A DNA stretch of 64,000 nt from NCBI GenBank assembly GCA_027488815.1, contig JAIYAX010000001.1:62001-126000 (forward strand). Direction: 5' to 3'. The notes beneath the pieces are model-generated. The model made no database searches, was not told the origin of the DNA, and was given only the letters and a program-made list of their open reading frames with translations. The stretch's first letter is position 1; the number at the start of each line of letters is the position of its first letter. Made by a program: the position numbers and the translations under genes. Source of the stretch: Cytophagaceae bacterium (GTDB lineage Bacteria > Bacteroidota > Bacteroidia > Cytophagales > JAIYAX01). Positions 495 through 8,396 of this stretch are shown piece by piece.

Positions 495-532
495 GCTTTA
501 CATATTATATATCATATTCTTATATATATTGT

Positions 533-564
533 TTTGATATATCATTTATTGATACATACCTTTG
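533..564 (+). promoter_or_regulatory. Bacteroidota-type promoter of padR operon with operator-like palindrome
   Basis: TTTG at 533-536 and TACCTTTG at 557-564 match the -33 TTTG and -7 TAnnTTTG boxes of Bacteroidota with a 20-bp spacer. The perfect palindrome TGATATATCA at 535-544 overlaps the -33 box, as expected for autorepression by PadR. The predicted start of transcription, about 5 nt after the -7 box, falls on the padR ATG at 569, so the transcript may be leaderless. Confidence 0.65.
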
Positions 565-915: not shown

Positions 916-1782
916 ATGAAGTATCTCTGTTCATTAATAATTCTTGGTTTAGGCCTCGTCACAGGCTGTCAAAAGACCCCCACTGATTTCAAGGCTATCG
1001 CTTCTATGCAGGATACCAATATCACTGCCTTGACAATTGAAAAAGGAGCTTATCGTAAGGCTTTGCTCATATTTCCCCATGCAGATGATGAAATAGTGGT
1101 GAATGGACTTAGTATGTATCTTAAAAGTAAGGGCGTAGAGTTGCATTTACTCACACTCTGCCGACATGATAGCCTGAGAATGGAAGAATGGGAATGCTCT
1201 CATCAAAAACAAGGCATGGAAGGCGCAGAAACGGCTGGTCTCCTAAACAACAGTTGGGAGCGGATCATGTCCGACGAAGTCATTTTTTGGTACGATCATA
1301 AGGATAGCATCTACTCAATTATTAAAAGCCAAATCACTGCTCTTTCGCCTGAGATACTCATCACTTATGACACTGAAATAGGTGCCTATGGTCATCCAGA
1401 GCATAGAATAGCAGCCGAGGTAGCTGAGCAGGTAGCGACGGATATGATCCTGGCTGGAGATACTTCTCTAAAACTTATTTTTCAGTCTACACTCACCAAG
1501 CCTTTGGAAACGTTTCTTTGCAGCCCTTCCCCTGGCTATGAGCTTGCTAAAAAACGGACAGGAAGTACCGGTTTACCGGCTCCAAATGTAGCCGTAGATA
1601 TCCGACCTTTTTGGCCGGGAAAGCGGGAAGCTGCTTCCTGCTATCAATCTCAGCTACACACCCTTAGTAAGTTCTACGTGTTTTACGAAGCTGAAGAAGC
1701 AAAAGAACACCATGATGCGTTTTCTCATGAATACTACGTGATGAAGACCCTCAGAGGAACATTCTCTGCTTCAAAACCATGA
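916..1782 (+). CDS. PIG-L (LmbE) family deacetylase, lipoprotein
   Basis: A 288-residue protein with a lipoprotein signal (LGLGLVTGC, lipidated Cys18), so it is likely envelope-anchored. The zinc-dependent N-deacetylase motifs of the PIG-L family are visible: PHADDE at 54-59 (the usual form is PHPDDE) and GHPEH at 159-163, which supply the metal-binding His/Asp/His and the catalytic Asp. The family removes N-acetyl groups from amino sugars in glycolipids, mycothiol or antibiotics. The substrate here is unknown. It sits between padR (5-nt gap) and the GldL/GldM-like gene, whose ATG overlaps its stop codon, so the three are one transcription unit. A lipid-anchored deacetylase controlled by PadR suggests an envelope or cell-surface glycan role (inference). 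Confidence 0.85.
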   Translation: MKYLCSLIILGLGLVTGCQKTPTDFKAIASMQDTNITALTIEKGAYRKALLIFPHADDEIVVNGLSMYLKSKGVELHLLTLCRHDSLRMEEWECSHQKQGMEGAETAGLLNNSWERIMSDEVIFWYDHKDSIYSIIKSQITALSPEILITYDTEIGAYGHPEHRIAAEVAEQVATDMILAGDTSLKLIFQSTLTKPLETFLCSPSPGYELAKKRTGSTGLPAPNVAVDIRPFWPGKREAASCYQSQLHTLSKFYVFYEAEEAKEHHDAFSHEYYVMKTLRGTFSASKP

Positions 1783-3059
1783 GAATGGAAAGCCTTCAAT
1801 TACAGGAGGATCAGGTTCTGCTCATTGCAAACTACCTCAATGAGCAAGGGCTTCAGGGAGCCTTGTTGTATGATGAGCTTCTTGACCACCTCTGCTGCGA
1901 TATTGAATCCCTAATGGCAGAGGGAAGCAGTTTTGATGAGGCCTGGCATCAACTTAAAACACATGTACCTGCTGAACAACTCCATTTCATCGAACATCAA
2001 ACTCAATTATCTCACAACAAACCATTTAACAACATGAAACGATTAATGCTGATTTCAGGCTCAATAGCTGCAGGTGGTCTACTATTTGGATCGACCTTCA
2101 AAGTCATGCATTGGCCAATGGCCAATATACTCACAGTACTGGGGGGATTCACCCTTACAACGCTGTTTCTCCCCTCCTATTTTATTTACCTTTATCGGAA
2201 GCAACAGGTTCAAAGGAACAAGTTGATGTTTCTATTTGCCTTTTTAGGTCCTTTTTGTGGCTCACTGGGGGTGATTGGCAAAACCATGCATTGGCCGGGA
2301 GCTACCTACGTGTCAATTGCAGGTTTGGTCTTCCTGGCCTTAGGCTTTATCCCCCTCTATCTTTATCGAAGCCTCAAATCCTCTGAGGACCGTGCCGGAA
2401 GCCTTGCTATGGTGATGATTTTGCTTATCTCAGTGCCTGTGATATTTATGGTCATCAACCCTAAACCTAGCAAAAGGCTACAGGACAGTATTGCAGAAAT
2501 AGCCAGAAGAGATGAGCAAATGGCAGGCATTTTTGGCAGGAAAAACAGCGAAGGATACTTTACCTTAACAGTCCTGGCTTCCGGTGACAGCAGCCTACTA
2601 ATGGCATCTGAGACTTTGTCAAGTGCCAGCGATGCGCTGGTGGATCATTTGGAAGGATTGAAGAAGAAGGTTATTGCCGACTCAGACGGTGGAAATGTGG
2701 TGTTGAACCTACAGAATTCGAACAATTTTATGACAATGGCGCAGACACGTACCTTGTTTTTTGATCAGCAAGGAGCCGCTTTGCTGAGAGAGAAATTCAA
2801 CAGCTATCAATTGTTGGTTTCGGGGCTGAATACACATGCTGGTAAGAAGCATCAGGCTCCAAGCTATATTAAAGTCATACTTGGTGAAGAAAAAGGCTGG
2901 GCTGATCGTCAGTTTACAGATAAAGCCTTGATCGATGTCGTAACTTACCTCTCTATGTTACAAACTGCCATAAGGGCTACTGAAGCTGAAACACTACAAC
3001 GCCTTATTTTAATGGTTAAGTACCAAGATCACCCACTGGCCAAAATGGCAGGTATATAA
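1779..3059 (+). CDS. Membrane protein joining GldL-like hairpins to a GldM-N-like domain
   Basis: 426 residues. Residues 1-85 are a soluble helical domain (LLYDELLDHLCCDIE) resembling the short domain that precedes many PadR-linked permeases. Then come two related transmembrane hairpins, each carrying the GldL signature: FKVMHWPMA at 107-115 and GKTMHWPGA at 167-175, exactly 60 residues apart, so an internal duplication. A fifth membrane helix at about 208-226 is followed by an exported domain (about 265-415) with the spacing of the GldM N-terminal domain: LSSASDALVDHLEGLKKKV, AALLREKFNSYQ, GWADRQF, and TYLSMLQTAIRATEAETLQRL. Neither hairpin shows the membrane Glu used by the GldL motor, and helix 5 lacks an Arg, so a non-energised relative is likely. 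Family assignment is by eye only. Confidence 0.6.
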   Translation: MRMESLQLQEDQVLLIANYLNEQGLQGALLYDELLDHLCCDIESLMAEGSSFDEAWHQLKTHVPAEQLHFIEHQTQLSHNKPFNNMKRLMLISGSIAAGGLLFGSTFKVMHWPMANILTVLGGFTLTTLFLPSYFIYLYRKQQVQRNKLMFLFAFLGPFCGSLGVIGKTMHWPGATYVSIAGLVFLALGFIPLYLYRSLKSSEDRAGSLAMVMILLISVPVIFMVINPKPSKRLQDSIAEIARRDEQMAGIFGRKNSEGYFTLTVLASGDSSLLMASETLSSASDALVDHLEGLKKKVIADSDGGNVVLNLQNSNNFMTMAQTRTLFFDQQGAALLREKFNSYQLLVSGLNTHAGKKHQAPSYIKVILGEEKGWADRQFTDKALIDVVTYLSMLQTAIRATEAETLQRLILMVKYQDHPLAKMAGI

Positions 3060-3082: not shown

Positions 3083-3116
3083 AAAGCCATCTTCTATTCC
3101 GGAGATGGCTTTTTTA
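3083..3116 (+). terminator. Rho-independent terminator of the padR operon
   Basis: Ten-base-pair perfect stem AAAGCCATCT / AGATGGCTTT (3083-3092 and 3103-3112) with a 10-nt loop, followed by a T run to 3115. It ends the padR operon and shows that the ATG at 3105, inside the stem, is not the start of the next gene. Confidence 0.9.
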
Positions 3117-3131
3117 ATGTTGATTTGCGCC

Positions 3132-4097
3132 ATGAAGCGCTTCATTGGCTACCTCAAGGAATATTCCCGGGAACATTTACGTCTCAGAAATATCATTCTT
3201 GTGGTTATCCTGAACACATTGTTGATCTCCATTAATTTTTACTTCGACTTTGAAAACAATGTTGTCGACCGGTTTTATGGGCAGACGGTTTACACCCTTT
3301 GGTACTTTTTGCTACAACTCATCCCATACCTGATTTGCCTAGGTCTTATCCTGCCTTCAAATGAACGGTATCGCTTAAAGAACAACTACCTCTGGATCAA
3401 GATATTCGCCGGGTTTTTCATACTTTCTTTGGACCGCTCTTTTTATGGAGAGCCATATCTTTTGGAAGGTTTGTCACCTGAGGTGTACCGATACATGCTA
3501 CGGCTTTTGAAACCATTGAGCGGAACCATCATTGTGTTTGGTTTACTTTTCATTTGGTATGTCCTGCTTGACCGCAGAAGGGGCATGGATCAGTTTTATG
3601 GATTAAAAATCAACAACAAAGACAAAGTTGCATACCTGTACTTGTTATTACTGATGATCCCATTGGTCGCTGCGGCCTCATTTCTGCCAGATTTTATCGC
3701 ATATTATCCCAAATACAAAAAGACAGGAGGAGCCCTGTTTGCCTCGATCATGAATTGGCCGGAGGTCATGGCGGTGATCCTGTATGAAGCATCCTATCTA
3801 AGTAGTTTTCTTACTGTGGAGCTGTTCTTCAGGGGCTTTCTTATCATGGGCCTGGCCCCACAGCTTGGAAAACATGTCGTGTTGCCAGCTGCCACAACTT
3901 ATGCTGTTCTACACTTCGGAAAACCTATAGGAGAATGCATCAGTTCACTTGCCGGAGGATATATTCTGGGTGTGATTGCCTTGTACAGCCGAAGCATTTG
4001 GGGCGGAATACTGGTACACATGGGCATCGCTGCCCTGATGGAGTGGTTTGCCTATCTGCAGCTCGTTTGGAGAGGGGAACTGCCCCCAATTCAATAA
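3132..4097 (+). CDS. CPBP-family (CAAX protease-like) membrane protein
   Basis: About 321 residues with roughly eight hydrophobic segments. The C-terminal third has the CPBP/Abi pattern: VELFFRGFL in one helix, VLHFGKP in the next and GGILVHMG in the last. Active members use EExxxR plus two His/Asn motifs as a glutamate metalloprotease site; here the first Glu is Val, so either the enzyme is inactive or only the second Glu is used. The start is taken at 3132 (MKRFIGYL) because the longer frame begins inside the terminator of the preceding operon. The gene stands alone, with its own likely promoter. CPBP proteins process prenylated proteins or act in peptide-toxin self-immunity; the role here is unknown. 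Confidence 0.7.
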   Translation: MKRFIGYLKEYSREHLRLRNIILVVILNTLLISINFYFDFENNVVDRFYGQTVYTLWYFLLQLIPYLICLGLILPSNERYRLKNNYLWIKIFAGFFILSLDRSFYGEPYLLEGLSPEVYRYMLRLLKPLSGTIIVFGLLFIWYVLLDRRRGMDQFYGLKINNKDKVAYLYLLLLMIPLVAAASFLPDFIAYYPKYKKTGGALFASIMNWPEVMAVILYEASYLSSFLTVELFFRGFLIMGLAPQLGKHVVLPAATTYAVLHFGKPIGECISSLAGGYILGVIALYSRSIWGGILVHMGIAALMEWFAYLQLVWRGELPPIQ

Positions 4098-7958: not shown

Positions 7959-8396
7959 TTAACTTCCCGTATCAAGTCCGTTTGATGTTATCAGCTCATC
8001 ATACTCTTGCTGAAAAGTGTTAATTCGATGATGTTCCTTTTGATTTTTAATGTATTGAAATACCCGCTCTACGATTGATTCTGAAACTGAATAACCTGCA
8101 TATCCTGTTTGCCATGCAAACTTTTGAGAAATGATGTTATCATGATTTATAAAATGAGAGCTACTTCCTTTTACTTGCTTAATCACCTCAGAGAGAGATT
8201 TTTGTGGATTTAATAGAAACAGGCAATGGATATGATCAGGCATACCACTAACAATTCGTAAAGGGCATCCTAATTCTCTAAATTCGTCATAAATAAATGG
8301 ATAGATTTTGTTTTCAACCGAAAAATCAATCAATGGTTCCCGTTCTTTGGTAGACCAAATAGCATGTATCCAAACTTTATTTAATGAATGCGACAT
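7959..8396 (-). CDS. IS200-like HUH transposase, RAYT type
   Basis: 145 residues, the length of a single-domain Y1 transposase. The HUH metal motif is HIH at 55-57 (PDHIHCLF), and the catalytic tyrosine is Tyr115 in FQYIKNQKEHH, with the helper Gln119 four residues later, as in IS200/IS605 TnpA. The gene is intact, with no TnpB. It is flanked on both sides by palindromes sharing AAACCGTGGG, within 40-230 bp, which is the arrangement of REP-associated tyrosine transposases rather than a plain insertion sequence. These enzymes nick and rejoin single-stranded REP hairpins. No target-site duplication is expected for this family, so mobility cannot be judged from one copy. Confidence 0.88.
   Translation of the reverse strand: MSHSLNKVWIHAIWSTKEREPLIDFSVENKIYPFIYDEFRELGCPLRIVSGMPDHIHCLFLLNPQKSLSEVIKQVKGSSSHFINHDNIISQKFAWQTGYAGYSVSESIVERVFQYIKNQKEHHRINTFQQEYDELITSNGLDTGS

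Follow-up and report, generated by a model that had tools for sequence, protein, structure and literature searches.

We found that a 426-residue membrane protein encoded in the window (the whole 64,000-nucleotide stretch of DNA analysed) is a predicted fusion of the T9SS motor proteins GldL and GldM, in which ring hairpins, axle helix and the first periplasmic domain (D1) of GldM are joined in one chain. We regard it as likely, with some reserve, that this protein acts as the membrane-bound sensor in a dyad of the PadR/HAAS type and that its sensing part derives from the GldLM proton motor as an inactive copy.

The gene for the protein (1779-3059, + strand) is an intact open reading frame whose ATG overlaps the stop codon of the upstream PIG-L gene by four bases, and it follows padR and the PIG-L gene in a tight row on the same strand (Table 1). 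The identities of padR and the PIG-L gene, which had been proposed by a previous sequence-only reading of this region, were confirmed by the Pfam profiles given in the table; the best NCBIfam match of the PadR protein was padR_acidobact (1.3e-17, under the cut-off of that model). A gene for a CPBP/Rce1-type membrane protease lies directly downstream (3105-4097, +; PF02517, 2.7e-8), and further along, a product encoded at 7959-8396 (-) resembles by eye a small IS200/REP-type (Y1) transposase.

Table 1. Predicted features of the padR locus in the window, and one example of a SpoIIE fusion from a related locus
Feature	Position (strand)	Basis or detail
Candidate PadR operator	507..542 (+)	Two overlapping sites, 507-527 ATATATCATATTCTTATATAT and 522-542; degenerate
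Predicted -7 promoter box TACCTTTG (TAnnTTTG)	557..564 (+)	12 nt upstream of padR start
padR, winged-helix regulator, 113 aa	569..910 (+)	PF03551, 3.9e-18
PIG-L-type deacetylase, likely lipoprotein (lipobox VTGC)	916..1782 (+)	PF02585, 3.1e-9; alignment with relatives
HAAS-like helical domain, residues 1-80, presumed cytoplasmic	1779..2018 (+)	Family HMM, hhalign, AF2 model
GldL-like hairpin 1 (TM1-TM2), MHWP, residues 86-140	2034..2198 (+)	PF22827; hhalign 97.9%, P 4e-13
GldL-like hairpin 2 (TM3-TM4), MHWP, residues 142-198	2202..2372 (+)	hhalign 97.1%, P 5.8e-11
TM5, equivalent of the GldM transmembrane helix, residues 203-228	2385..2462 (+)	Structural alignment to 6ys8
GldM first periplasmic domain (D1), residues 229-411	2463..3011 (+)	PF12081, 3.8e-11; hhalign 97.6%; VIA-align
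SpoIIE fusion: GldL hairpins, GldM D1, extra TM helix, SpoIIE-type phosphatase	L101:3985-6123

The GldL-GldM fusion and its motor-related features

Two Pfam profiles matched the 426-residue protein above their curated cut-offs, GldL_N (PF22827) in two stretches (9.1e-7) and GldM_1st (PF12081) at residues 276-409, and the NCBIfam models for GldM (9.2e-9) and GldL (0.0033) matched it under their equivalog cut-offs. Among 33 proteins of the same architecture, the window protein included, GldL_N matched 32 and GldM_1st matched 15 (best 8.9e-20). In profile-profile comparisons (hhalign) with true GldM and GldL proteins from the gld loci of related genomes, the C-terminus was aligned with 29 GldM sequences (P 4.7e-12) and each of the two hairpins with 30 GldL sequences at the values in Table 1, and the reversed controls gave 0.1% in both cases, which rules out a chance resemblance of hydrophobic hairpins. 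A fusion produced by a frameshift or an assembly error in this one genome was likewise ruled out, by about 60 relatives of the same architecture.

Structure comparison was consistent with these results: with VIA-align, the seven best matches of the AF2 model were all GldM/PorM (Z 9.8-12.1, the next, unrelated match having 8.5), the full-length model being of low confidence (pLDDT 59) and made from shallow alignments of the window and related-locus sequences. The alignment to 6ys8 begins at model residue 209, within TM5, and the relative at L104:4813-6249 retains the GldM-like transmembrane sequence VVLTALLAMNVSKD. The sequence-only reading had described two MHWP hairpins 60 residues apart, a fifth membrane helix and a soluble domain similar to the N-terminal part of GldM; the hairpins were found with their histidines at positions 111 and 171, the fifth helix corresponds to TM5, and the soluble domain was recognised as GldM D1 by Pfam, profile-profile and structure comparison, all of which agree. 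In a tree of 75 rows, one branch (SH-aLRT 99) separated all true GldM domains from the fused and stand-alone GldM-type domains, which fits a single origin of the module; the window row sits on a long branch, which makes its position within the tree uncertain.

The residues connected with motor function were examined in the same sets of proteins. The proton-path glutamate in TM2 is present in all 30 true GldL sequences and in none of the 33 fused proteins at either hairpin; acidic residues are almost absent from the counted hairpin columns of the fused proteins and never occur within the helices. In F. johnsoniae, motor function depends on this glutamate (GldL E49; PMC8986121). Position 205, where helix 5 begins, is Arg in the window protein and K or R in 33/33 sequences, and by spacing it is about six residues out of register with the arginine of GldM. 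The chain stops after D1, so that GldM D2-D4 are absent, and whereas true GldL has a long C-terminal region and a gene of its own next to gldM, the window protein is fused. The absence of the membrane glutamate had already been noted by the sequence-only reading. A covalent link between ring and axle should block rotation, and because of this link and the loss of the glutamate, the fused protein is probably not a motor, in agreement with its previous description as GldLM-derived and probably non-energised. A dimer would form a locked ring-axle assembly of four hairpins around two helices, replacing the 5:2 motor.

The N-terminal domain and the adjoining padR gene

The first 80 residues or so make up a helical domain of their own, conserved and with a DHxCC core, which the sequence-only reading had not reported. 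Its AF2 model contains four helices (pLDDT 73), and a PDB fold search with this model gave no significant match and no evidence of a new fold. The Pfam HAAS profiles (PF08006 and PF22564) did not match the N-terminus directly; the HMM of the N-terminal family matched two Bacillota proteins of the perm_prefix_1 family (NF038403) with 25.2 and 19.7 bits and left a third candidate unmatched, and hhalign gave 77-84% for the comparison of the family with perm_prefix_1 proteins against 0.1-0.2% for reversed controls. At the GxP place of the third helix, relatives have FGPNGL or APNGL and the window protein has HVPAEQL. Judged by the HMM and hhalign results, the domain may well be remotely related to HAAS, the signalling domain that has PadR as its partner.

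In 70 of 77 family genes, padR was located at most 100 nt upstream, often overlapping, with a few loci counted twice; the seven exceptions include two copies of the window locus, where the PIG-L gene intervenes, and one locus (L049) where a hydrolase-like gene intervenes. Among the loci retrieved, those whose GldLM proteins all lack the HAAS-like domain showed no padR. Since the N-terminus is HAAS-like and padR lies directly upstream in so many cases, the conserved unit is a two-gene dyad of padR and the membrane-protein gene.

A palindrome upstream of padR, ATACATAA-N5-TTATGTAT, occurs with three or fewer mismatches in 47 of 53 loci (mean in shuffled sequences, 5.1) and with two or fewer in 32 of 53 (0.7 in shuffles); only mononucleotide shuffling was used, and the same loci had served to define the motif. 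The candidate sites in the window have three (507-527) and four (522-542) mismatches and are individually weak because the region is very AT-rich. In many loci the palindrome runs into a TAnnTTTG box, the -7 promoter consensus of Bacteroidota, placed 12 nt before the padR start codon, and therefore the mRNA would be nearly leaderless. The conserved palindrome supports a predicted autoregulation by PadR.

Autoregulation alone could keep the two genes together, and the membrane protein might then be mainly a PadR-controlled effector, a membrane scaffold or stabiliser that senses nothing itself. Cases of PadR repressors that control transmembrane proteins have been described (Hauf et al. 2019, as cited in PMC11237479). 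However, the N-terminal domain is constant while its partner varies, as would be the case for a signalling adaptor: besides GldL and GldLM, it is carried by a MacB/FtsX permease (L142, L143) and an M23 peptidase (L144, L145, L147), each after padR, and by a thioredoxin-like part (L059, L064; no padR within those short loci). We thus consider the effector reading quite unlikely and prefer that of a sensor paired with PadR. The GldM-type domain may dimerise in the periplasm and sense the envelope's condition, mechanical or chemical; the hairpins may transmit the change to the HAAS-like domain in the cytoplasm, this domain would hold or free PadR, and PadR would then alter the repression of its own operon, here including the periplasm-facing deacetylase. 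The envelope-sensing role proposed previously is plausible.

Neighbouring hydrolases and the spread of the GldLM module

The HxDD motif and a downstream histidine motif have a role in PIG-L deacetylases, and both are kept in the window protein as PHADDE and GHPEH. A search of the genomes of the order found relatives of the 426-residue protein in 31 of 291, mostly as proteins of about 205 residues with the N-terminal domain, two GldL hairpins and no GldM part. These 31 genomes contain 97 PIG-L matches, three of which adjoin the pair (in the window, L016/G055 and L024/G279; a PIG-L search at 1e-20 missed two linked copies, recovered by a locus scan and the Pfam profile). Three linkages in three families compare with about 0.06 expected (P about 4e-5, if each genome has about 4500 genes and the genomes are independent), which favours the view that the three genes are a dedicated surface-modification system serving the PIG-L deacetylase. 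Against this, 28 of the 31 genomes have no such linkage, and the window PIG-L protein shares no more than 23% identity with the two linked copies elsewhere, where the gene order differs; we judge this view very unlikely. The three-gene unit put forward by the sequence-only reading, which had suggested a survey of gene neighbourhoods, thus stands in part: the genes occur together in two other genomes of the order, above chance, but rarely and in a different order, and the core consists of two genes. Among 28 neighbouring genes scanned, eight encode PF00144 serine hydrolases, several of them from one genus, and an Ntn-hydrolase-like gene was present in two loci, one with a weak AAT match. Hydrolases recur as neighbours, mostly with signal-peptide-like starts, and no single one belongs to the core.

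A class-wide search with a profile built from five fused members gave matches in 106 of 395 genomes, and in about 60 of the 395, as counted by eye from match ranges, the proteins combined the N-terminal domain with two hairpins and, in most cases, a GldM-type region at the C-terminus. The presence of true motor proteins in genomes with these fusions raises the alternative that the fusion works with the real T9SS motor as its partner or inhibitor, inserting into GldL rings or pairing with GldM D1 and so tuning secretion or gliding. Indeed, of 42 genomes that encode fused proteins, 39 contain a GldM_1st match at E<=1e-15 as well, the genome of the window encodes a separate true GldL and GldM pair elsewhere (contig C22), and the fused protein keeps D1. 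However, a near-complete genome (G591, locus L042) has a fused HAAS-GldLM protein and no GldM_1st match at that threshold, the common 205-residue members lack any GldM domain, and the linked neighbour is padR rather than gld genes. A role as motor partner therefore appears unlikely, and we retain the reading of a PadR-paired sensor.

The module also occurs outside this pairing. Stand-alone GldLM proteins were found in seven loci (L103, L105, L107, L112-L115), and in seven others (L100, L101, L102, L106, L108, L110, L111) GldL hairpins, GldM D1, a sixth helix and a SpoIIE-type phosphatase are combined in one chain. Pfam matches confirmed SpoIIE and GldM_1st in L101 and L108, SpoIIE and GldL_N in L117:5583-6941, and GldM_1st and GldL_N in L103, L104, L107 and L112. 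In one locus (L104:3828-6249, -), a second, stand-alone GldLM protein adjoins a HAAS-like protein that has three GldL hairpins as well as a TM motif resembling that of GldM. Judged by domain content, the phosphatase on the same module is a separate predicted link to signalling. We incline slightly to the broader reading that fusion and loss of energisation turned a rotary motor into a general module for envelope sensing, used across Bacteroidota with at least two outputs, PadR/HAAS-type and SpoIIE-type phosphatase. If true, parts of an ion-driven motor can become a signalling device, and Bacteroidota would have a candidate route of envelope sensing. A naturally occurring fusion of ring and axle, which is not expected to rotate, also offers a clean test case, and annotation of GldL or GldM by domain match alone takes in non-motor proteins.

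Comparison with known systems

The fused protein shares with the GldL and GldM of the T9SS motor the GldL hairpins with their MHWPGA turn, the GldM transmembrane helix and D1. It differs in being one chain instead of two proteins, in having two hairpins per chain, in the loss of the glutamate, in lacking the cytoplasmic region of GldL and D2-D4 of GldM, and in its tie to padR. Our literature search found no published description of a GldL/GldM module with PadR or SpoIIE.

HAAS-PadR pairs were proposed as an alternative to two-component systems by Ravi et al. 2024 (PMC11237479), so that the class to which the two-gene unit would belong is already described, whereas the sequence-only reading had suggested that its three-gene unit may be an undescribed system. 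As in these dyads (DUF1700, NCBIfam perm_prefix_1), a short helical N-terminal domain is fused to varied membrane sensor parts and a stand-alone padR adjoins across the family, with one intervening gene in the window. The Bacteroidota version differs in its DHxCC core, which existing HAAS profiles do not match, and PMC11237479, in the part consulted, does not name GldL or GldLM as a sensor part. The HAAS-VanZ protein of Priestia (L131) and the perm_prefix_1 protein of Paraclostridium (L132) show the same arrangement, padR followed directly by a membrane-protein gene with this N-terminal domain, and differ in having other sensor domains. The GldLM-derived sensor thus probably belongs to a known regulatory class, with an unexpected source for its sensor part.
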